From: Pseudobacteriovorax antillogorgiicola
Lineage (GTDB): Bacteria > Bdellovibrionota_B > Oligoflexia > Oligoflexales > Oligoflexaceae
Length of the DNA: 64,000 nucleotides
Assembly (NCBI RefSeq): GCF_900177345.1
Contig: NZ_FWZT01000004.1
Span: 1-64,000, forward strand
Direction: 5' to 3'
Below, in pieces: positions 5,110 through 23,999 of the stretch. Each line of letters starts with the position of its first letter. The stretch's first letter is position 1. The notes under the pieces were generated by a model. That model was not told where the DNA came from, made no database searches, and worked only from the letters and a program-made list of their open reading frames with translations. The translations under genes were made by a program, and so were the position numbers.

Positions 5110-6009
5110 TTAATAATGAGTTTCCTGTGAGCCGTGGTGAGATGGAAAAACCTGGATGTTAATGTGCAGTAGGCTATCGGGATCATCACTTTGCAAGCTG
5201 CTGTGCATGGCTAATAGGGATTCTTTAAACTCTTTAAGCTTGCTCTTGTACTCATCTTTTTTGATGGTGAGAATCGTTGATGCAAATAGAGATTCATCTT
5301 TCTTGGAAAAATATCGAGGTAAATTGTCCGAAGATGACTGTAAAGAAGCCTGGAGAAAGTTGATGGAAGCTTCAGTATCGCCGTCATCATAGAGATAAAG
5401 TATCGATTGGCTCTCTTGGCGGTAAGTATAGTTCCCGGTATGCTTTTTTTCGATAAGTCCTTCTTTTAAGAGGAGTGCCAGGGCTCGATCCACTTCAATA
5501 CCCCGGTCTTTGCCGAAGTATCTAACAAGATCCTTTCTCTCCGGTTCGTTAGAGAACAGCGCAAAGGCGCAATAAACTTCCACCGCAAAGTTCATTCCTC
5601 TTATCCTAGCCTTAAACACATCGAGAGGCCCTTCAATTTGCCTACGAAGCACTTGACAATGAGCTTGATGAGAGTCTTTTTTGGTGGCCGATTTTTCATG
5701 CTCCCAATCGAAGAGAGCTAAAACGTAATCAATGTGCTTTTTTTCGGCTCCCAGAATGGTCAGCAGTGATTGCCAGTGTGGCCTTGAAAGCTTCCTCCGG
5801 CCGCGGAGTGCTTCAGAAAGATTGGAGCGAGACTTGAGACCGATTTTCTTTGAGAGAGCCGCCAGGGTTTGATGCACATGTTGCTTTTGATAGGCTTTGA
5901 TCATCTGATCAAGAATTGTGATGCTTCGTTCATGATTCAGGATGATCTGAGAATAGGTATCCAAGGGCTTCAATTTTCTATCCGTAACTGTTAAGACCAA
6001 GGGTGACAA
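5110..6009 (-). CDS. TIGR02147 / DUF4423 family regulator-like protein
   Basis: The family is an expansion typical of Bdellovibrionota and Fibrobacter. Its N-terminal helical region (LAALSKKIGLKSRSNLSEAL, then RGRRKLSRPHWQSLL) resembles a helix-turn-helix. The C-terminal half is diagnostic: SLFASTILTIKKDEYKSKLK followed by LLHINIQVFP. The function is not established biochemically; a DNA-binding, regulator-like role is inferred from the N-terminus. The start is uncertain: TTG 6009 has GGGAAG three bases upstream. It is divergent from a gene for a small secreted protein at 6070, and a distant relative sits at 7904. The C-terminus ends GSQETHY. Confidence 0.75.
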   Translation of the reverse strand: MSPLVLTVTDRKLKPLDTYSQIILNHERSITILDQMIKAYQKQHVHQTLAALSKKIGLKSRSNLSEALRGRRKLSRPHWQSLLTILGAEKKHIDYVLALFDWEHEKSATKKDSHQAHCQVLRRQIEGPLDVFKARIRGMNFAVEVYCAFALFSNEPERKDLVRYFGKDRGIEVDRALALLLKEGLIEKKHTGNYTYRQESQSILYLYDDGDTEASINFLQASLQSSSDNLPRYFSKKDESLFASTILTIKKDEYKSKLKEFKESLLAMHSSLQSDDPDSLLHINIQVFPSHHGSQETHY

Positions 6010-7903: not shown

Positions 7904-8878
7904 TTGATCGACTTTGCCACACTGGAACGCCAACTGATCATCGCACTTCGGGGTTCTCGGACCCAAGGGATGATGAATAAGAAGCTCGGCTATCACTTTA
8001 ATCAGTATTACCGGTGGGAAAGCGGCAAAAAACGCGTAATGTGGACTGATTTCCTAGCTATTTTGAAAGTTGCTGGCAGGAAGACCGTTTTTAAAAATTG
8101 GTTATCACGAATACTATCTTACAACTGTAATCTATCAAAACCTGCCGAGATTTTGGAGAGGCTTAAGGGGGCTGATTCAACCAAAGAGTTTGCCGAAAGG
8201 CTAGGTGTTTCGCGGCACAAGCTCTATCGGTGTTTGGCGGAGGATCAAGAGCCGCCAATTAGGCTATTACTAATGGCTATCTTTAAGGTGAAAATCGGCT
8301 TTCTAGCTGGAGTCTTGGAAGATCTTGTGGGTCTCGATAAGATCGATGAATTCCCTCTGCAAGAAAAAAGTCGTTATCGCCTCAGTGAAATCTTTGCCAG
8401 AGAGCCAATTTTGCCCGCTGTGATCCGCTGTTTGGAATTGGATGACTATGTGAGCCTTGACCGTCATGTGGATGGCCATATAGCGGCTCGCCTTGGGATT
8501 CCTTTGGAGGATGAGCGAAACTATCTGCGCTTGCTGCTAGAGGCCGGAAACTTATCCCTCTCGGGAGCTAAGTATATTGTCAATGATACGACAATTCATT
8601 TCAACGGTTCCTTTGCGCAGCGACAAGATATGAAGCGATTCTGGTTGAAAAAAACAGATGAATCCATCGCTAGCATGAAGGATGGTGATGAATCTGGTTT
8701 TTTCGGGGTCAATATTCTTACTGCCAATGGCGCTGTGAAAGAAAAGATTTCTAAGAAGATCTACGAGTGTTTTTACGAGGTCAGCCAGATCTTAAAGGAA
8801 GAGGACAATGCCAATCCTGAGCACATCCTTGTGGTCAATATGCAAGTCACCGAACCTTTTATTCCACCTTCAGATTGA
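7904..8878 (+). CDS. TIGR02147/DUF4423-like helix-turn-helix protein
   Basis: A 324-residue protein with two helical segments that look like DNA-binding folds: LGYHFNQYYRWESGKKR (residues about 28-44, similar to the XRE helix region) and FAERLGVSRHKLYRCL (about 94-109). The C-terminal block SGFFGVNILTANGAVKEKIS ... HILVVNMQV matches the general shape of the TIGR02147 C-terminus, as in the gene at 5110. The start is TTG 7904, with GGTG seven bases upstream; no better ATG is present. It is divergent from a secreted-protein gene and followed by two further small secreted-protein genes. A regulatory role over these is inferred. Confidence 0.65.
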   Translation: MIDFATLERQLIIALRGSRTQGMMNKKLGYHFNQYYRWESGKKRVMWTDFLAILKVAGRKTVFKNWLSRILSYNCNLSKPAEILERLKGADSTKEFAERLGVSRHKLYRCLAEDQEPPIRLLLMAIFKVKIGFLAGVLEDLVGLDKIDEFPLQEKSRYRLSEIFAREPILPAVIRCLELDDYVSLDRHVDGHIAARLGIPLEDERNYLRLLLEAGNLSLSGAKYIVNDTTIHFNGSFAQRQDMKRFWLKKTDESIASMKDGDESGFFGVNILTANGAVKEKISKKIYECFYEVSQILKEEDNANPEHILVVNMQVTEPFIPPSD

Positions 8879-14632: not shown

Positions 14633-15016
14633 ATGATATTGATTGTCGACGATGAAGAAGATGTTCGTCAGGTTACCATAGCCTTACTTGGAGTCGATGA
14701 GCCAGCTGTTGCTGAGGCGGCAGATGGGTTTGAGGCTTGGGAAAAAGCTGCGTCTCAAAAATTTGATTTGATTATCTGTGATTATCATATGCCTCATTGC
14801 GATGGCCTAAAGTTTGCGAGTACTGTCAGGCAAAAAGAGAACCCAAATCGAGACACACCCATCATTCTGATTTCGGGCTACATCGGTTCTCTACCTGAAG
14901 AGGAGTCGCTAGAGAATATTTACTTTATTAGCAAGCCAGTGAGCGAGGGGCAGCTACATCGTATGATCCGTATCGTTACTGGTGGGGCCATAAATCCTAT
15001 GCGGAAAGGGGCTTAG
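14633..15016 (+). CDS. Stand-alone response-regulator receiver (REC) protein
   Basis: A phospho-acceptor domain without an output domain. The acidic pair is in LIVDDEED (D6/D7), the phospho-Asp is D50 in IICDYHMP, the switch Ser is S81 and the conserved Lys is K101 (ISKPVS). All key residues are intact. It heads a tightly packed operon: its stop codon is followed directly by the ATG of the HPt-REC gene. It resembles the single REC protein at 60418 in its C-terminal segment (KPxxxxxxHRxI), so the two may be paralogues. A CheY-like or Spo0F-like shuttle role is inferred. Confidence 0.9.
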   Translation: MILIVDDEEDVRQVTIALLGVDEPAVAEAADGFEAWEKAASQKFDLIICDYHMPHCDGLKFASTVRQKENPNRDTPIILISGYIGSLPEEESLENIYFISKPVSEGQLHRMIRIVTGGAINPMRKGA

Positions 15017-16021
15017 ATGAGCCAAGTTGATATCCGCAGGGAGTTTATCGAGGAAGCCACAGAACTCATTGAGGATTGCGAAGTCGCTCTCACTAATTTG
15101 AGTAAGCAATCGTATAATCCAGAAGCTGTGGATCGATTATTTCGCGACCTTCATACGGTGAAAGGGTCTGCAGGGGTTGTGGGCTTCAGCAAGCTTTCTG
15201 AATTTGTTCATGCCGTCGAAGACGCCGTGAACCTGTATCGCGAGCAGGGTAAGATTCCCGACCAGTCGCTCACCATCTTAGTGGAAGCCAATGACTGGAT
15301 CGCTTTCTGGCTGGAGAAGCTGGCCGATGATATGGACTACTGTCCGGGAGACGTTGAGCTTCTCGACCATCTGAACATGCTGAAAGTTAAGGAAAATATT
15401 GATCTTCGTGTTGAGCTGAAGGATAACGCTCCTAGTTTTGGAACTTTCGAAGATGAGCCTTCAGAGGACAATCAACCGACAGTGATGCTCGTGGATGACG
15501 AGCCTACCATGTTACAGATTTTAGAAACCTACTTGAGCGATCTGCCTGTAAACTTCGTAAAGGCTAACTCAGCGCAAGAGGGGCTTGAACAATTCAACAA
15601 GAACGAAGTTGATGTCATAGTCTCTGACCTGCGAATGCCCGATATGAACGGTGTGGATTTTATCACTGAAGTTCGTAAAAGGGATCAGAAGGTCGAGGTC
15701 GTTTTTTTCTCGGCTCATGCAAATCGACAAAGCTTAGAGCAATTTATCAAGCTTCGAACTTTTGCCTTTATCGATAAGAGTGAAAGTCGTATCGAAATCC
15801 TCAATACAGTGGCAAATGCTGTCAAAACTAAGCGGGTGGCCGATGCCTTAGCTTGTTTGACGAAACTTAATTTTGAAATCTACCTCGATTTCAATCTGCT
15901 TCGTAATGGCAAGCCAGTAGAAGATAGAATCCAGAGTAAACTTGAGAAAGTCGCTAAGTTAACATCAATTATTTCTGATCCAGAACTAGTATTGGGAATG
16001 GATTTAAAAAGGATAGCTTAG
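15017..16021 (+). CDS. HPt-REC phosphotransfer protein
   Basis: The N-terminal HPt domain (residues about 1-115) carries the phospho-histidine in DLHTVKGSAG (H46). The middle receiver (about 155-270) has MLVDDEP, phospho-Asp in IVSDLRMPD, and a final F-I-D-K Lys. A C-terminal helical tail of about 60 residues is unassigned. HPt and REC in one chain, with the HPt first, resembles the N-terminal part of CheA-like or Rcs-type relays. It probably passes phosphate between the kinase at 17033 and the REC proteins of the operon (inference). No gap to the preceding gene and 16 bp to the next. Confidence 0.88.
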   Translation: MSQVDIRREFIEEATELIEDCEVALTNLSKQSYNPEAVDRLFRDLHTVKGSAGVVGFSKLSEFVHAVEDAVNLYREQGKIPDQSLTILVEANDWIAFWLEKLADDMDYCPGDVELLDHLNMLKVKENIDLRVELKDNAPSFGTFEDEPSEDNQPTVMLVDDEPTMLQILETYLSDLPVNFVKANSAQEGLEQFNKNEVDVIVSDLRMPDMNGVDFITEVRKRDQKVEVVFFSAHANRQSLEQFIKLRTFAFIDKSESRIEILNTVANAVKTKRVADALACLTKLNFEIYLDFNLLRNGKPVEDRIQSKLEKVAKLTSIISDPELVLGMDLKRIA

Positions 16022-16037
16022 ATAAAAGGAGTTCGCT

Positions 16038-16412
16038 ATGCGTATGATACTGGCCATTGATGATTCAAAGGTAGCCTTAATGCAGGTTAAAAAGTATGTT
16101 CATAAGATATTTCCCGACTGCGAACTCATCAGCAGCACGAGCCCTAGCGAGGGAATCGAATTAGCAAAGAAACATGGCAACAATATTGATCTTGCCATCA
16201 TTGACTTTAACATGAAGGAAATGACTGGTCTTGAGGTGTTGGAGTCGATCTGCGACTCCGTGGATATCAACAAAATTGTTATTTGTACTGCGAATCTTCA
16301 AAAGATCCTGGAAGCCAAAGTCACAGAACGAGGTGCTCGATATGTTGAGAAACCTTTGAGTCAAGAGAAGATGAATCAGATTTGCGAAGAGCAGAGTCGA
16401 AAAGCATCTTAG
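16038..16412 (+). CDS. Stand-alone REC protein paired with CheC
   Basis: A full-length 124-residue receiver preceded by aaaaggagttcgct. The key residues are D8/D9 (AIDDSK), phospho-Asp D56 (IIDFNMK), Thr T84 (VICTAN) and Lys K105 (VEKPLS). It is a paralogue of the REC at 18565: both have IDDSK, D56-FNM and K105-PLS at identical positions. Each is directly followed by a CheC-type gene, so the phosphatase next door is the likely partner that removes its phosphate (inference). No output domain. Confidence 0.9.
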   Translation: MRMILAIDDSKVALMQVKKYVHKIFPDCELISSTSPSEGIELAKKHGNNIDLAIIDFNMKEMTGLEVLESICDSVDINKIVICTANLQKILEAKVTERGARYVEKPLSQEKMNQICEEQSRKAS

Positions 16413-16421
16413 GAGTGTCCC

Positions 16422-17036
16422 ATGAAACTAACAGAATGGCAGGAAGAGCTTCTTAAAGAAACATTTAACTTGGGAGTGGGTAAGGCTTCTGCTTCAATCG
16501 GTGAGCTTGCTGGTTGTGAGGTTGAGCTAACTGTTCCTGAGGTTCAAATTTGTCAGCTCAAAACCTTGGTCAATGATATCTCAGCGATGGAAGGCAGCAG
16601 CCTCTCCGCTGTCATTCAAACCTACTCGGGGCCTTTCGAAGGAACAGCAATGATGCTCTATTCAGAAGAGGCTAGCCTCGATCTCGTGCGCTTGATTATG
16701 GGTTCCGATACTCCCTCCGAGCAGCTTTCAGAGTTAGAGTACGATGCTCTCTGCGAAGTGGGTAATATTGTACTCAACGGCTGTCTATCGTCTCTTGGTG
16801 GGCTATTTGAAGCGGAGATTGAAACAGAACTACCAGAACTTCTTTCAGGAACTACAAAAGATGTTCTTACCCTCGAAGGAAAGCTCGACGAAGGAAAACA
16901 AGTGGTCTTTCTGAAGATGGGATTTCAAGTGGCGACGGGTAAATTGCAAGGTTATCTAAGCTTTATCCTTGATACTGATAAAATACATAATCTTTTAGAA
17001 TGCCTGGAAAATTACTATAGGAAAATCAGTGCATGA
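16422..17036 (+). CDS. CheC-type phosphatase with two intact active sites
   Basis: CheC/CheX/FliY-family enzymes dephosphorylate CheY-like receivers. Two pseudo-symmetric helices carry the signature E-x-x-N: LKETFNLGVGKA (E13, N16) and LCEVGNIVLNG (E112, N115, N119). Both are complete, as in true CheC. Length 204 residues matches CheC. Its stop overlaps the next start (ATGA at 17033-17036), so translation is coupled to the kinase. The REC gene just upstream is its probable substrate. Chemoreceptors and CheD are absent from the window, so it probably works in a relay other than chemotaxis. Confidence 0.87.
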   Translation: MKLTEWQEELLKETFNLGVGKASASIGELAGCEVELTVPEVQICQLKTLVNDISAMEGSSLSAVIQTYSGPFEGTAMMLYSEEASLDLVRLIMGSDTPSEQLSELEYDALCEVGNIVLNGCLSSLGGLFEAEIETELPELLSGTTKDVLTLEGKLDEGKQVVFLKMGFQVATGKLQGYLSFILDTDKIHNLLECLENYYRKISA

Positions 17037-18550
17037 GGAACAAGATTCCAAGGCCTTTACTGGAAACTGCGGTTTACTCAGCAGACTACGGTATTATCAT
17101 TCTTAACAGTAAAGAAGAAGTTCTTGTGTGGAATGACTGGCTTGCTAAGCACTCTGGTGTTGCGAGCGAGGAAGCCTTGGGCCGAAAATTGGGCGAAATA
17201 TTCAACCTTGAAGACAAGAGCAAGGTCCTCAAAGCGGTGAGGGAATCTCTTGTTCAGGGCAAGAGCACCCTACTGTCTCAGTCCTTTAATCCCCATCACC
17301 TTCCCCTCTATCGCAAGGTAAGCAAGAAATCCCCCATGACGCAGAGGATTGTCGCCAGACCTCAAAAGTTTGAAGGCGAGCGATATTGTTTTCTTGAAAT
17401 TACCGACCAAAGTGCAGGTGCGGAAAGGGAAAAGTACCTTGCTAGAACCAAAGATTATATAGGTAAAGTGATCGAGTCGATTCAAGAAGTTATGATTATT
17501 CTGGACGCAGATCATATTATTTGTGAGGTCAATAAGGTTGCGACTCAGGTTCTAGGCTATCAGGCGGATGAGATGGTTGGCAAGCCACTGGATATGCTAC
17601 TCTGTGAGAGTGGTGATCAATCAGCTCATGACTTCATATCTGCGGATATGGAGAAGCCGTTGAAAGACCTTGAAGTTACAATGAGGACTAAATCTGGTAG
17701 CCAACTAACGGTGATCCTATCGGGCTCCCATATCAACCGTAAGGATAACGAGGATACCAGATTTGTTGCGATAGCTAAGGATATTACGGAAAGACGTAGG
17801 GCCGAGGAACAGGTTGTGGCCCAAAAAGCACAGCTCGCAGCAGCATCAAAGCTGTCAGCCCTGGGAGAGATGGCCGGGGGGGTGGCACACGAGATCAATA
17901 ACCCAGTGGCGATCATACACGGGCTTGCCTATCGACTCAATAAGACCCTCAAGAAGCAGGGGATACCAGAGGATTCGGACCTATTTAACATCATCTCTGA
18001 AATCGACCAAACTACCACTAGAATCACTAAGATTATTAAAGGCCTTAAAGCCTTTTCTCGTAGCGGTGATAAAGATGACTTTATGCCAGCTAGCCTAAAG
18101 CAAATAGTTGATGATACCCTCGCGCTATGTGCTGAAAGCTTTAAAATGGTTGGAATCACCTTGGAAGTCACCGACGTTCCTGACAACCTCGTGGTTGAGT
18201 GTCGGCAAATACAAATTTCTCAGGTACTTCTCAACCTCTTGAATAATGCTAAAGATGCGGTGAATGATCTCGATGATCGTTGGATCCGGGTGTGTGTTCG
18301 TGCGAGTGATGAAAAAGTCATGGTCAGCGTCGAGGATTCAGGGTCTGGGATTCCTGAAGATAACATCGAGAAGCTATTCCAACCATTTTTCACAACCAAG
18401 CCTGCCGGGCATGGCACAGGGCTAGGACTTAGCATCTCGAAGGGGCTCATAGAAGACCACCATGGTCATTTTTTTTATGACTCGAAATCTGGGAACACGC
18501 GTTTTGTAATCATACTTCCGTTAAGACAAACTCGCGATAAGGTTGCTTAA
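17033..18550 (+). CDS. PAS-PAS sensor histidine kinase, soluble
   Basis: The cytoplasmic kinase of the operon. Two PAS domains (about residues 8-125 and 142-258) precede the HisKA domain with the phospho-His H286 in GEMAGGVAHEINNP. The HATPase region has VLLNLLNNAKDAV (N box), DSGSGIP (G1), and GHGTGLGLSISK (G2). No transmembrane segment or receiver is present. The kinase closely resembles the one at 55297 in its catalytic half. It is the only conventional kinase in the seven-gene operon, so it is the probable phosphate source for the HPt-REC and REC proteins around it. Confidence 0.92.
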   Translation: MRNKIPRPLLETAVYSADYGIIILNSKEEVLVWNDWLAKHSGVASEEALGRKLGEIFNLEDKSKVLKAVRESLVQGKSTLLSQSFNPHHLPLYRKVSKKSPMTQRIVARPQKFEGERYCFLEITDQSAGAEREKYLARTKDYIGKVIESIQEVMIILDADHIICEVNKVATQVLGYQADEMVGKPLDMLLCESGDQSAHDFISADMEKPLKDLEVTMRTKSGSQLTVILSGSHINRKDNEDTRFVAIAKDITERRRAEEQVVAQKAQLAAASKLSALGEMAGGVAHEINNPVAIIHGLAYRLNKTLKKQGIPEDSDLFNIISEIDQTTTRITKIIKGLKAFSRSGDKDDFMPASLKQIVDDTLALCAESFKMVGITLEVTDVPDNLVVECRQIQISQVLLNLLNNAKDAVNDLDDRWIRVCVRASDEKVMVSVEDSGSGIPEDNIEKLFQPFFTTKPAGHGTGLGLSISKGLIEDHHGHFFYDSKSGNTRFVIILPLRQTRDKVA

Positions 18551-18564
18551 ATAGGAGATACCCA

Positions 18565-18945
18565 TTGAAATCAGTTCTACTTATTGATGATAGTAAGTTT
18601 TCCTGTAAGCGGGAAGGTGAGATGATTCAAAATTTTCACTCTGGAGTCGATGTTACACTAGCCTATTTGCCAAGCGATGCGATTCGGTTGATTCGAGACG
18701 AAGGCAAAATCTTTGACCTGATCTTTTTAGATTTCAATATGCCGGAAATGAATGGCTTGCAGCTGCTAGATGAGCTGAAAGATCATGTGGATCTTGCCAA
18801 AGTAATACTACTCACGGCGACTTCGGCTTTTGCTACAAAGTCTCAAACCCTTCCCGAGGGGGTGAGGTTGATCCAAAAGCCCCTTTCCATCGAAAAGTTG
18901 GAAGCCACCTTAGGCAAAGACGAACTTCAAGAGCAGGCATCATGA
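18565..18945 (+). CDS. Stand-alone REC protein, second REC-CheC module
   Basis: TTG start preceded by taggagata. The acidic pair is D8/D9 (LIDDSK), phospho-Asp D56 (FLDFNMPEMNG), Thr in LLTAT and Lys K105 (IQKPLS). It has no output domain. Key positions coincide with those of the REC at 16038, which points to a duplication within the operon. The last codons overlap the next gene (ATGA at 18942-18945). Confidence 0.9.
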   Translation: MKSVLLIDDSKFSCKREGEMIQNFHSGVDVTLAYLPSDAIRLIRDEGKIFDLIFLDFNMPEMNGLQLLDELKDHVDLAKVILLTATSAFATKSQTLPEGVRLIQKPLSIEKLEATLGKDELQEQAS

Positions 18946-19499
18946 TTCAAGTCGTTCCAAATGATTGGGAAGTTCGTATCAAGCGTATGTTTGATCAGGG
19001 GCTAGATCAGGCAACTCAAAATCTGAGTCAAATGTTTCAAGAGGAGACCAGCTTCTCTATTGAAGATTCATCTGTCGTATCATTTGGCCCCCAATCCAGC
19101 CAAAGCCTTTTGAAACCTTATGTCGAGGCCTATGGAATCGAACTGAGTGGGGGGACAGAGGTTCTCGGTATGGCAGCACTTCTCTTTTCTGATCAAGAAG
19201 CTGATCATCTGGTGGCAGATATCTGCCAAGAAGATAATGTATCTGATGACTACAAAACTGACGTTCTTTGTGAACTAAGTAATATTATCATCAACACCTG
19301 CATCCAAGAACTAGCACCAGAGCTTCATGATAATGTTATGGGCGGGATTCCTCACCGATTGCAAGAGGCTCTACAGAAGCAAATCCTTGATAGTGCTAGC
19401 TATTTACTTCTAAGTTCAAAGTTTGTTAATCGTCGGCGAGATCTTAGTGGTACGGTAACGATTATGTTACCAATGCAAGCATTTAGAATAGCAGCCTAA
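18942..19499 (+). CDS. CheC/CheX-like phosphatase with one degenerate site
   Basis: The 185-residue protein aligns with the CheC at 16422. The second active helix is intact, VLCELSNIIINTC (E111, N114, N118). The first helix, IKRMFDQGLDQA, has lost both the Glu and the Asn (to Arg and Asp). One-site enzymes of the CheX/CheC type are known, so it is probably still active. It ends the seven-gene operon, translation-coupled to the REC gene before it. No terminator hairpin is obvious before the convergent gene, which ends at 19521. Confidence 0.8.
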   Translation: MIQVVPNDWEVRIKRMFDQGLDQATQNLSQMFQEETSFSIEDSSVVSFGPQSSQSLLKPYVEAYGIELSGGTEVLGMAALLFSDQEADHLVADICQEDNVSDDYKTDVLCELSNIIINTCIQELAPELHDNVMGGIPHRLQEALQKQILDSASYLLLSSKFVNRRRDLSGTVTIMLPMQAFRIAA

Positions 19500-19520: not shown

Positions 19521-20237
19521 CTAAGCATTGGGCACGTAGCTCTTGCTGTTTAATGCTTTGTAGTCATCGATGATCTTATCGATATCGGGATCTTCAAGGA
19601 AGGTAAGTTCTGCTCCAAATCCTGGAGGTAAATCACCCTCGCTTTGTTTTCGGGTCCATAGTACTTGGGCTTGGCCATTGAGGGGCTTTAATTCATCAAA
19701 CGTAAAGGTGAAAGCGACTACATCGCCAGGCCGTGGCATTTCCTTGGGATCAGCTAAAAAGAAGCCTCCGGTTCCTAGGCGTAGCCGTCCTTGGGCGGAT
19801 TCTGCTGAACTAAAGTTCTCTGCGAGGCTAAGCACCGGGGAATCAATCTTATTTTCGACTCCCCACCGACTCGCTATGGGAGTTAGCTTTGATTTTACAG
19901 TTTCGATAAGTGCTTCATAGTCGATTGGTTTGGGAAACACAGCCTGTGCTCCTTTAACTAAGGCTTCTTGAACTGTATTTTCAGAGAAGGCTGTGACGAG
20001 AATCACTGGGGGTGGGTTATCCATGGTTTCCTGGATGCGATCTAGGAGTTCGATCCCCGACATGTTCGGCATTTTTACATCCGAAACCACAATATCAATT
20101 TCATGATTTGCCATAAGGTTGAGCGCTTCCTGACCAGAACCAGCACTGATAACGTGAAAGCCAGCATCCTCTAGCTCTTCAGATACGATTCTACGAATAA
20201 GGTGTTCATCGTCGAGAACCAGAACAGTTGAACTCAA
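19521..20237 (-). CDS. REC-PilZ response regulator
   Basis: The receiver domain (about residues 1-120) has LDDEH, phospho-Asp D53 (VSDVKMP), T82 and K103 (FPKPID). The C-terminal about 100 residues look like a PilZ-type beta-barrel: GRLRLGTGGFFLADP, then MPRPGDVVAFTFTFD, and LNGQAQVLWTRK. The canonical RxxxR c-di-GMP motif is not clear. It resembles the atypical PilZ group found in myxobacteria and relatives. TTG start after agggaggctcgc. Convergent with the REC-CheC operon. It may couple phosphorelay input to surface motility or c-di-GMP (inference). Confidence 0.78.
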   Translation of the reverse strand: MSSTVLVLDDEHLIRRIVSEELEDAGFHVISAGSGQEALNLMANHEIDIVVSDVKMPNMSGIELLDRIQETMDNPPPVILVTAFSENTVQEALVKGAQAVFPKPIDYEALIETVKSKLTPIASRWGVENKIDSPVLSLAENFSSAESAQGRLRLGTGGFFLADPKEMPRPGDVVAFTFTFDELKPLNGQAQVLWTRKQSEGDLPPGFGAELTFLEDPDIDKIIDDYKALNSKSYVPNA

Positions 20238-20387
20238 GCGAGCCTCCCTATGAGTACGGACGCTTCCCCATAAGCTAGCATCATTGCCTTGGAAATTTAT
20301 GCATCAAGGAACTATTATAGGACATTGTAGCGATATCGTGAAAGATTTTCTACAATAGCCTTGACATCAATCGTTCATGAGCAGCAT

Positions 20388-21989
20388 ATGGCAGAGAATA
20401 AATACTGGGTTTGTGCCCTTGGAGTCGAAGCAGCTTCACGGCAGATCCTTGATCAAGTAGTGACGTCCTGTGGCTTTAGGTTCGCTGACTTTGAAGCGAG
20501 TCAGGGTCTCTATGACTTTCTCTCTAAGAAACACTTGTTCGCAGCTTTGATCTTGATTGACCAACATGTAGGGGGGGAAGATGCCTATGTGGTGAGGCAA
20601 TATTTATTGGATCAAGGCTGGGATATACCAACTGTGGTACGCTTAGATGAAATGGTTCACTTTGAAGAGATGGACAAAATTATCAGTCTTAGAATCTGTC
20701 GGGTCATCTCGGACTATGATGTACAAGATCTAACTAACTCCATAAAGAAGTATAACCGCCGCGAGGACCTTGAGATTGATCAAGAGATACGCGAGGCCTT
20801 TATTGAGGAATCTGGGGAGCTTCTTGAAGAGGCTGAGTCGGTGATATTAGATTTAGAAAGCAATGTGTCCGACAAGGAAGCTCTGGCAAACCTATTTCGG
20901 ATCGTTCACACGATAAAGGGTTCGTCTTCGGTTGTCGCTTGGAAGGATTTTGAGATATTTGTACATCGTTATGAAGACCTTCTGAGTCGCGTGGAGTCGG
21001 GCGAAATTCCAGTATCTTCGCAATTGGGCGATGTCCTACTGCTAGGCTTTGACCGGATCAAGATCCTTATTGAGGCAATAAGCTCGGAATCCGAAAATCG
21101 AGATTTTGATGTGTCTCAGTGGATTACTGATCTTGATATTTCTGCACAAGCTGATGCAAACTCAAACAAGGGCGGAGCGAGTCGTGAACCCCAGCATCCG
21201 GGAGTCAAGTCCATCAAAGTCCCTGTGGATTCTCTAAGTCAATTAAGTTACTACGTAGCTGTCATTACAGAGAATCAGAAAAAGATGGGGCATCTGATCG
21301 ATCAACTTAGCCCGAAAAACTTTGAGCGGAAAATCCATAGCATTCAATTCATCAACAAAGAGCTACGGGATTTAGAAGAGGGCCTCATTGAGAAGCTTGA
21401 AGAGGTTCGTTGTGTGCCTGTAAAATCAGTGTTCCGGCCGTTCCCTCGCATTGTTCGTGACCTGTCTAAAACCTTGGGAAAGTCTGTTAATCTTGATTTG
21501 CGTGGAGAATCCCTTCGGATCGATAGTACGATTGCATCGGTTTTGAGCAATACCATGGTTCACCTGATAAGAAATAGCTTAGATCATGGTTTGGAATCTC
21601 CTGATGAACGATTGAAGCTTGGCAAGAGCGAGGTTGGCAGCCTGACAATCGTTGTAGAGAAAACCGAGGCTGATGTGATTGTGACGATTGAGGATGATGG
21701 TCAGGGGGTAAATCTGAAACGAGTTTGTGAAATTGCTGAGAAAAAAGGCTTGTACGATTCGACAACCTTGGAGTCAATGAGTGACGAGGAAAAAGCCAAT
21801 ATTATCTTTAGCCCTGGGTTCAGTACCTCCCAATCGGTCAGTCAGGTATCCGGGCGAGGCGTGGGTATGGACATGGTGAAGCAAACGGTCAGCTCCCTTG
21901 GTGGCTCTATTGCAATTGAATCCCAAGCTGGCAAGGGATCTCGCATTCGGTTAAGCTTTTCAAAGGGGCAGAATGTGATTTATTTCTGA
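20388..21989 (+). CDS. CheA-like kinase with N-terminal pseudo-REC and no CheW-binding domain
   Basis: ATG 20388 is chosen; the frame opens at TTG 20361. Residues 1-120 resemble a receiver (AALILIDQHVGGEDAY) that lacks the acidic pair. The HPt domain has its His in FRIVHTIKGSSS (about 174). It is followed by a P3-like dimerisation helix region and a CheA-type ATPase (VHLIRNSLDHGLE, EDDGQGVN, GRGVGMDMV). The chain stops right after the ATPase (RIRLSFSKGQ), so the C-terminal CheW-like regulatory domain of real CheA is missing. Membership of a receptor array is therefore unlikely. It is convergent with the kinase at 21996. Confidence 0.88.
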   Translation: MAENKYWVCALGVEAASRQILDQVVTSCGFRFADFEASQGLYDFLSKKHLFAALILIDQHVGGEDAYVVRQYLLDQGWDIPTVVRLDEMVHFEEMDKIISLRICRVISDYDVQDLTNSIKKYNRREDLEIDQEIREAFIEESGELLEEAESVILDLESNVSDKEALANLFRIVHTIKGSSSVVAWKDFEIFVHRYEDLLSRVESGEIPVSSQLGDVLLLGFDRIKILIEAISSESENRDFDVSQWITDLDISAQADANSNKGGASREPQHPGVKSIKVPVDSLSQLSYYVAVITENQKKMGHLIDQLSPKNFERKIHSIQFINKELRDLEEGLIEKLEEVRCVPVKSVFRPFPRIVRDLSKTLGKSVNLDLRGESLRIDSTIASVLSNTMVHLIRNSLDHGLESPDERLKLGKSEVGSLTIVVEKTEADVIVTIEDDGQGVNLKRVCEIAEKKGLYDSTTLESMSDEEKANIIFSPGFSTSQSVSQVSGRGVGMDMVKQTVSSLGGSIAIESQAGKGSRIRLSFSKGQNVIYF

Positions 21990-21995
21990 GTCACT

Positions 21996-23999
21996 TTAAG
22001 CACTCTGATCATTGATTTGCCCTGGGGTCTTCGGCAGAGTCAAAGAGAAGGTGGCACCTTTGCCAACTCCAGGACTTTCTACCACCAGAACCCCACCAAG
22101 TTCATAAGCCATGAGCGAGCTACTATGGAGCCCCAAGCCATTGCCTGTATTTTTCGTGGTAAAGCCAAAGTTAAATATCTTCACTTGGTTTTCAGGAGAG
22201 ATACCGCATCCATTGTCCCTTATGGAAAAGCTGATTTCAGTCTCCGTCTCCGAGGCCAAAGCTTGAATCCATACCTGGCGCGATTGAGCGTCGGGGGGAA
22301 AGGCTTGGATGGCATTAAGGAGAAGGTTTACGAGAATCTGGGACACTTTGCTTTGGACCGATGTTAGAGTCGTCTTATCTGCAATATCGACATGAATCTT
22401 CACTTTGTTTTTTTGAATTTCTAAGTAGCAAAGATCGAGAACTTTATCGATGATCGACTGGAGAGTCATTACCTCTTCAAGATCGGGAATCTTAGCATAA
22501 TTAAGCTGTAGCTTCACAATCTCATCGACATTTTGAAGCCCTCGCCGAATGCGTTCTAGGTTGGTAATCCGTTCTTCTTTATTGTGCTCCTCTTCAGAGT
22601 TCAGAAGATTCCAGAAGTTTAAAACTTCGCGGCCTTCCGCTTGAAGATAGACTTCCAATTCAGGTACCTTCTCGCGTACAAGAGCGACAAAGTTTTTCGC
22701 TCGGTTGGGATAAAAGTCCCTGTGAGCCTGATCGAGAGCCTCCGAACAGCTTACAAAAAGAGATGTCATAATATTACCGATATTATGAAGAAAGCCGATA
22801 GCCACTTCAGCCATTCCAGCTTTTCTTGAGGCCTCAACCAACTCTCTTTGATTCGCTGTAAGCTGTTCTGTTTTCTTGATAACCTCATACTCGATGAGCC
22901 TCAAGATTCTAAGATTTTCGAGTCTCGATACAGCGGCACCAGCTAGAGTTTCTAGGTAATTCTGGTCGATACTGGTGACGGCTTTCTGATGATCCAAGTG
23001 GGCGACGATCAAACCGAAGCACGTCTTATCAAAGTTTACCAGAGGGACAAATATGTTTTGGCCTTCCATATAGGGGGCCACGTCGATCGAGGCACGGGCG
23101 ATCGCTTTCTGACCATGGGTTAGAATATCTTGTTTCTGGCTTTGCCAGAAGCTTACGAGGTTCGGTACAGTGATCATTCCACGGTCGTTGCTTTCGATAA
23201 AAATGATATGTTCTGCACGGAGTTTCTGTTTGAAAGAGTTGAGCAATAAGCTGTGAACATCAGCTTCGTGGCTGAGCCGCGCAATTCTAAGGCTAATATC
23301 ATTGATAGCGACAAGATCCATAATCTTCGTCCGAATGGAGTCACGCATGAGCATGAAGCTTTCGGCAAGGCTTCCTAACTCGTCTTGAGACTCCACAATG
23401 AAGTTATGGTTAAGATCACCTTCTGAAAGACGCTTCGCTCCATGGCTCAGAGTCTCCAAGGGCGTTTTTATAATGTTGCTCAGGTAGCGTGATGTTACCA
23501 GGGCAACCACCAGAGTTGCCAATAGACCCATAATAAGTGCAAATAGCGTTGTTTCGATCACCCGCTTGCGCATATGGGATAAGTCGAAAGCCACGGTTAT
23601 TAGAGCTATAAACTCCTGATCACGATAAATCTCCCGAGATTTACAGAAATACTCTGAAGATCTGCAAAGAGTTTCGAGTGGGTTGCCAGTTGCTAGGTTA
23701 TTGGATCGATAAACGAGGTCTCCTTCGGCGCTAACGATCTCGATGCTATGAACATCAGGATCAAGGACGATTGATTGGGAAAAATCGATGATAACTTCTT
23801 GGCTAAAGTTCCAAATCGGTTCAGCGAGAGATTTGGTTGAAAGGTGAAGAGATGCATCCGATTTGGCCTCTAGGAAGGCCATTGAGTCAAGGTATTGCTT
23901 CACTCCCAAGGCGATCGATAGGATGCAGGTGCCTATAGCGATCGTGCTCAATACGCGACGATTGATGCGACTCGAAATGCTTTTTCGACCAGAAGGCAT
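21996..23999 (-). CDS. Membrane histidine kinase with HAMP, GAF-like domain and atypical H-box
   Basis: Transmembrane helices near residues 17-36 and 150-172 enclose a periplasmic sensor of about 110 residues with a cysteine pair (LCRSSEYFCKS). HAMP (about 173-225) and a GAF-like domain (about 240-370) follow. The phospho-acceptor helix reads AEVAIGFLHNIGNIMTSL, with His followed by N-I-G-N rather than E-x-x-N/P. The HATPase domain is complete (VNLLLNAIQAF, DNGCGIS, TGNGLGLHSS). No receiver is attached. It probably signals to one of the nearby REC proteins. The start is ATG 23999 with aggtaagat upstream. Confidence 0.88.
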   Translation of the reverse strand: MPSGRKSISSRINRRVLSTIAIGTCILSIALGVKQYLDSMAFLEAKSDASLHLSTKSLAEPIWNFSQEVIIDFSQSIVLDPDVHSIEIVSAEGDLVYRSNNLATGNPLETLCRSSEYFCKSREIYRDQEFIALITVAFDLSHMRKRVIETTLFALIMGLLATLVVALVTSRYLSNIIKTPLETLSHGAKRLSEGDLNHNFIVESQDELGSLAESFMLMRDSIRTKIMDLVAINDISLRIARLSHEADVHSLLLNSFKQKLRAEHIIFIESNDRGMITVPNLVSFWQSQKQDILTHGQKAIARASIDVAPYMEGQNIFVPLVNFDKTCFGLIVAHLDHQKAVTSIDQNYLETLAGAAVSRLENLRILRLIEYEVIKKTEQLTANQRELVEASRKAGMAEVAIGFLHNIGNIMTSLFVSCSEALDQAHRDFYPNRAKNFVALVREKVPELEVYLQAEGREVLNFWNLLNSEEEHNKEERITNLERIRRGLQNVDEIVKLQLNYAKIPDLEEVMTLQSIIDKVLDLCYLEIQKNKVKIHVDIADKTTLTSVQSKVSQILVNLLLNAIQAFPPDAQSRQVWIQALASETETEISFSIRDNGCGISPENQVKIFNFGFTTKNTGNGLGLHSSSLMAYELGGVLVVESPGVGKGATFSLTLPKTPGQINDQSA

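Follow-up and report, generated by a model that had tools for sequence, protein, structure and literature searches.

A Pdc-like receiver–CheC–PAS module with a predicted histidine kinase output in Pseudobacteriovorax antillogorgiicola

Introduction

What do CheC-type phosphatases do at a locus that has no chemoreceptor to serve? Few functions have been assigned to these proteins outside chemotaxis. Class II CheC is known as a category, and Muff and Ordal (2008) reportedly reviewed CheC-type phosphatases beyond chemotaxis. The question was raised by a stretch of 64,000 nucleotides from Pseudobacteriovorax antillogorgiicola (hereafter the window), in which receivers, a soluble kinase and two CheC-type proteins are encoded side by side.

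A possible model comes from Burkholderia thailandensis. The phosphorylated receiver PdcC binds the PAS domain of the cyclase PdcA and inhibits the enzyme, and PdcB, a CheC/CheX phosphatase, dephosphorylates PdcC and thus relieves the inhibition (review PMC9899790; PMC12421958). The primary source for this PdcABC system, Wang et al. 2022 (doi 10.1128/aem.02529-21), is represented here by the account in the review (PMC9899790).

Results

Seven genes in one likely operon

The first-pass annotation had placed a seven-gene REC/HPt/CheC operon at 14633–19499. Seven co-directional open reading frames were recovered exactly there on the forward strand, and Pfam and NCBIfam supported every domain that had been named, in the order REC1, HPt-REC, REC2, CheC, PAS-PAS-HisKA-HATPase kinase, REC3 and CheX′ (Table 1). 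From 5′ to 3′, the intergenic distances are 0, 16, 9, −4, 14 and −4 nt, and most of the genes have GGAG-like ribosome sites. A terminator-like stem and a gap of 282 nt lie between the unit and a TonB receptor gene upstream of it. Given the tight spacing, the upstream stem and the gap, the seven genes likely form a single operon. The key residues, namely the receiver Asp and Lys, His46 of the HPt domain and His286 of the kinase, are intact, and no transmembrane helix was predicted in any of the seven proteins.

Table 1. Features of the operon and its surroundings (positions in the window)
Feature	Position	Strand	Evidence and remarks
Terminator-like stem-loop	14361–14386	+	10-pair stem, T-rich tail; 3′ of TonB receptor gene; upstream end of the unit
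REC1, stand-alone receiver, 127 aa	14633–15016	+	Pfam Response_reg 1.6e-21; Asp50, Lys101
HPt-REC, 334 aa	15017–16021	+	Pfam Hpt 6e-15, Response_reg 5e-24; motif HTVKGS; His46
REC2, stand-alone receiver of the core trio, 124 aa, PdcC-like	16038–16412	+	Pfam 3e-13
CheC, predicted phosphatase, 204 aa, PdcB-like	16422–17036	+	Pfam CheX/CheC 8e-10; NCBIfam CheC_Thtogales 4e-19
Soluble sensor kinase, 505 aa, WNW-PAS/PAS/HisKA/HATPase	17033–18550	+	Pfam 3.5e-24; His286; no TM helix
WNW-PAS domain and signalling helix of the kinase	17033–17530	+	Alignment; AlphaFold; family HMM
REC3, stand-alone receiver, TTG start	18565–18945	+	Pfam 5e-17; closest to REC2
CheX′, second CheC-type protein, 185 aa	18942–19499	+	Pfam CheX 1.8e-5, below curated cut-off; motif; fold
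REC-PilZ, convergent neighbour outside the operon	19521–20237	−	Pfam 4e-27; PilZ 5.6e-4
CheA-like kinase, neighbour	20361–21989	+	Pfam Hpt 1e-10, HATPase 2e-14; CheA models; no CheW (P5) domain
Membrane histidine kinase, HAMP-GAF	21996–23999	−	Pfam

Two predicted receiver phosphatases

The motifs of CheC are ExxN-x22-P (site 1) and DxxxExxN-x22-P (site 2). Compared with the consensus D/S-x3-E-x2-N-x22-P, site 2 is exact and site 1 has E in place of D/S; both motifs of CheC count as intact. CheX′ keeps one intact active site only, DxxxExxN-x22-P, which is also exact to the consensus. A CheC profile matched CheC of T. maritima in the PDB (1xkr) with an E value of 9e-27. The same structure was the top PDB match of the AlphaFold model of CheX′ (mean pLDDT 79.5; E 9.5e-9, TM 0.74), and CheX′ as modelled has a CheC-type fold despite its weak Pfam score. 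The active-site motif and the CheC/CheX/FliY fold are thus found in both CheC and CheX′, and the two proteins are predicted to be receiver phosphatases. When the organism's own genome was searched with the Pfam models, PF13690 gave 12 matches and PF04509 (CheC) gave none, because the latter model is short.

A PAS variant related to that of PdcA-type cyclases

The first PAS domain of the kinase belongs to a divergent PAS variant, named WNW for its invariant W-N-x-W. Its AlphaFold model (pLDDT 93.2) shows a PAS fold with structural matches to LOV, NifL and 3mxq, and the WNW profile also retrieves 3mxq, a solved PAS protein of Vibrio cholerae. The family HMM recognized the window kinase strongly and the PAS domains of Burkholderia PdcA-type proteins at 7e-14 to 9e-14. 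By this measure the WNW-PAS of the kinase and the PAS of PdcA-type cyclases are homologous, the similarity being remote and detected by profile only. The Burkholderia pdc-type loci that were fetched read REC-CheC-WNW-GGDEF and belong to the same WNW family. At 16038–18550 of the window, REC and CheC genes likewise stand directly upstream of a WNW-PAS protein, which together with the family HMM match to the PdcA PAS marks a Pdc-like module. Three strong WNW matches occur in the organism's own genome (in the window, C17 and C20), all after a CheC gene. On a plasmid of Vibrio sp. HDW18 (L180, 2584–4031), a REC-CheC fusion precedes a stand-alone WNW-PAS that is 147 aa long and has no output domain; this PAS is a profile relative of 3mxq.

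Conservation of the REC-CheC-WNW trio

A scan of genome contigs with a single-protein query gave no matches, and the kinase as query matched histidine kinases in nearly every genome and was hence uninformative. GTDB genomes were scanned with a three-row CheC alignment, which yielded 46 loci; close CheC relatives were rare in the other searched genomes of the phylum. G043, from the same class and another family, carries a collinear REC-CheC-kinase trio with identities of 37% (REC2 and its counterpart), 29% and 40%, the N-terminal domain of the kinase included. In 21 of the first 23 loci of the scan (L070–L092, mainly proteobacterial), a WNW protein follows CheC. What comes after the WNW domain varies, being a HisKA or HisKA_3 kinase, a hybrid kinase-REC, GGDEF or PAS-GGDEF-EAL.

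A search for the WNW domain only matched 41 of 274 sampled Gammaproteobacteria (~15%), using a model that was built from CheC-adjacent proteins and so describes that subfamily. CheC lies directly upstream of WNW in 28 of the 30 gammaproteobacterial loci fetched, or 27 of 29 when the seed locus is left out. REC is present in 26 of the 30 fetched WNW loci, as a separate gene before CheC in 21 and fused to CheC in five. Another 26 genomes searched for WNW do not count as independent, since CheC had served to pick them. In a tree built from 66 CheC+WNW pairs, the output was swapped repeatedly, with at least 10 changes needed between histidine kinase and GGDEF; the window and G043 cluster together (95/91). 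REC-CheC-WNW is the part that stays constant, and the output can be exchanged. The REC-CheC fusions and the conserved pairing support the idea, already put forward in the first-pass annotation, of a receptor-free kinase/REC/CheC unit in which CheC is dedicated to a local REC.

Additional components of the operon

REC3 is 33% identical to REC2 (E 2e-23). Among the collected sequences, REC2 is the top non-self match of REC3, followed by the RECs of other REC-CheC-WNW modules, and the top matches of CheX′ are module CheCs. The REC3-CheX′ pair is therefore probably an old tandem copy of the REC2-CheC pair. Relatives that carry the trio only lack counterparts of this second pair, of REC1 and of HPt-REC. 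Synteny had been proposed as a check on the locus, and the survey gave a divided answer: the trio is conserved, but the seven-gene layout was not seen at any other locus fetched, G043 having the trio only. HPt-REC homologues elsewhere in the genome and the class had no CheC within the fetched 1.5-kb flanks. An ancestral seven-gene unit was also considered, and rejected because these homologues do not adjoin CheC in the fetched stretches. The locus is a Pdc-like module in which the output is a kinase and to which REC1, HPt-REC and a further REC-CheC pair have been added.

Chemotaxis genes and genomic surroundings

The locus had been described as lacking a chemoreceptor, and this held. MCP and CheW, the pair that marks a chemosensory array, had no match in the 64-kb window; CheD was absent from the whole genome, the same search being positive in control genomes. 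CheC-CheD chemotaxis (class I CheC) was rejected, as the genome has no CheD partner. The 7.3-Mb genome gave 19 MCP and 13 CheW matches, all outside the window, and 12 CheX-domain matches. Several other CheX genes of this genome adjoin REC and kinase genes (L047, L050–L053), so that the organism habitually keeps CheC/CheX outside receptor clusters. L050 (7474–10434, C11) and L051 (7116–10077, C4) are paralogous modules with a receptor-free CheX arrangement, comprising a CheX-like protein, a PAS-HPt-CheA-like kinase without CheW and a REC. At L049 (7635–9308, C16), a REC gene adjoins a REC-REC protein with a CheX match in the C-terminal part.

The three genes that follow the operon also encode signalling proteins (Table 1), which the first-pass annotation did not mention. 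Among them, the CheA-like kinase gene is divergent from that of REC-PilZ; read by eye, residues 1–130 of this kinase may be a degenerate receiver. Two DUF4423 proteins, paralogous regulators of which one has a weak HTH match, are encoded within 3 kb elsewhere in the window (5113–6009, reverse strand; 7904–8875, forward strand).

Chemotaxis-type genes adjoin the module in some other bacteria. In other Proteobacteria, the REC-CheC-WNW kinase genes of L071, L075, L078, L079, L082, L085 and L088 lie beside CheA genes, some of them also with CheB-sized REC proteins, CheW or MCP genes. At L089, L090, L104, L113 and L114, the gene after CheC encodes a WNW-PAS protein, of the GGDEF-EAL type where checked, and CheC itself is not immediately preceded by a REC. 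A CheV-like CheW-REC gene lies a few kb further downstream at these loci, which is a possible direct link of the module to flagellar chemotaxis.

Discussion

Relation to known systems

The first-pass annotation knew of no described system with this layout. That no longer applies to the REC-CheC-PAS core, which is the PdcCBA arrangement with a kinase replacing the cyclase. In both cases one operon encodes a REC, a CheC/CheX phosphatase and a PAS output protein, with PAS and CheC homologous by profile. However, the output of PdcABC, which in the strict sense requires GGDEF, is directed to c-di-GMP, whereas that of the window is HisKA-HATPase, and the window has an extra PAS, the second REC-CheC pair, REC1 and HPt-REC besides. 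PdcA-type modules retain the other CheC active site, and mechanistic details may therefore differ. The binding of a phosphorylated REC to a PAS domain with a change in output is known for PdcC/PdcA only (PMC9899790). The BCAM2837 locus of B. cenocepacia also has REC and CheC domains adjoining a cyclase and a kinase gene, but its output is GGDEF and its deletion phenotype includes a swarming defect (PMC3296584). Thermotoga CheC and Bacillus CheC-CheD share the CheC fold and active-site motifs with the window proteins, which in contrast have neither CheD nor a receptor array at the locus. In the literature searched, only the cyclase form was described and no experiment on the kinase-output form was found.

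The use of CheC outside classical chemotaxis also has a precedent. In Myxococcus xanthus the CheC homologue DifG dephosphorylates DifD, likely a phosphate sink (PMC4671073). The Dif system resembles the window in that a CheC homologue acts on a stand-alone REC, in an exopolysaccharide pathway, but differs in its use of MCP, CheW and CheA homologues.

A proposed mechanism and its rivals

We propose, with a probability of about 0.6, that the REC2-CheC pair controls the kinase through the WNW-PAS domain in a PdcCBA-like manner. Phosphorylated REC2 would bind the WNW-PAS and alter kinase activity, probably lowering it; CheC would hydrolyse REC2-P and release this brake. With an output that is a kinase and can itself phosphorylate receivers, the trio would amount to a negative-feedback loop. 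The REC3-CheX′ pair may act on this kinase alongside REC2-CheC or serve as a phosphate sink, and REC1 and HPt-REC may pass phosphate onward or admit input from another kinase. As to the final output, REC-PilZ is a possible partner.

A plain drain of phosphate, the model of the first-pass annotation, would be a simple account: the kinase phosphorylates the RECs, which act as sinks or as intermediates for HPt-REC, the CheC-type proteins drain them, and the WNW-PAS senses a ligand and binds no REC. That one unit combines three stand-alone RECs with an HPt-REC and a pair of phosphatases fits such a scheme, as does the likely sink DifD. However, the REC-CheC pair also precedes WNW-GGDEF and WNW-GGDEF-EAL proteins, in trios without a kinase gene, which rules out the draining of a cognate kinase as the general role of the pair. 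Moreover, PdcC-P works by PAS binding (PMC9899790). We regard the drain as less likely than control through the WNW-PAS.

Less probable still is that the operon is an accessory to a chemosensory pathway, in which a CheA elsewhere phosphorylates the RECs and the CheC-type proteins tune its signal. The genome does encode MCPs, CheWs and several CheA-like proteins, a CheA-like kinase that lacks the CheW domain is encoded close to the operon, and the module adjoins CheA, CheB or MCP genes at the seven proteobacterial loci named above. On the other hand, receptor and CheW genes are missing from the window and CheD from the genome, many module loci have no chemotaxis-type neighbour, and the operon has a kinase of its own. 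Most likely, the CheC-type phosphatases here serve ordinary signalling and not chemotaxis.

Implications

Beyond this locus, we tentatively suggest that REC-CheC is a general plug-in allosteric unit for WNW-PAS proteins of any output, and that the operon is a two-input resettable feedback circuit of two pairs and one kinase outside chemotaxis; this wider reading is the less probable part of our proposal. If true, it would cover kinase, cyclase, phosphodiesterase and PAS-alone outputs. The survey ties many non-chemotaxis CheCs to one partner, a PAS variant found in about 15% (41/274) of the gammaproteobacterial genomes, and links kinase-output forms to the published c-di-GMP switch PdcABC. Together these give one testable rule, that REC-P binds the WNW-PAS and CheC resets it, with several outputs. 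The Pdc-like module is widespread; described in the literature searched only in its cyclase form, it is found here with a kinase output and a probably duplicated pair. This suggests that there are kinases whose sensor PAS domain listens to a receiver and not to a small ligand.
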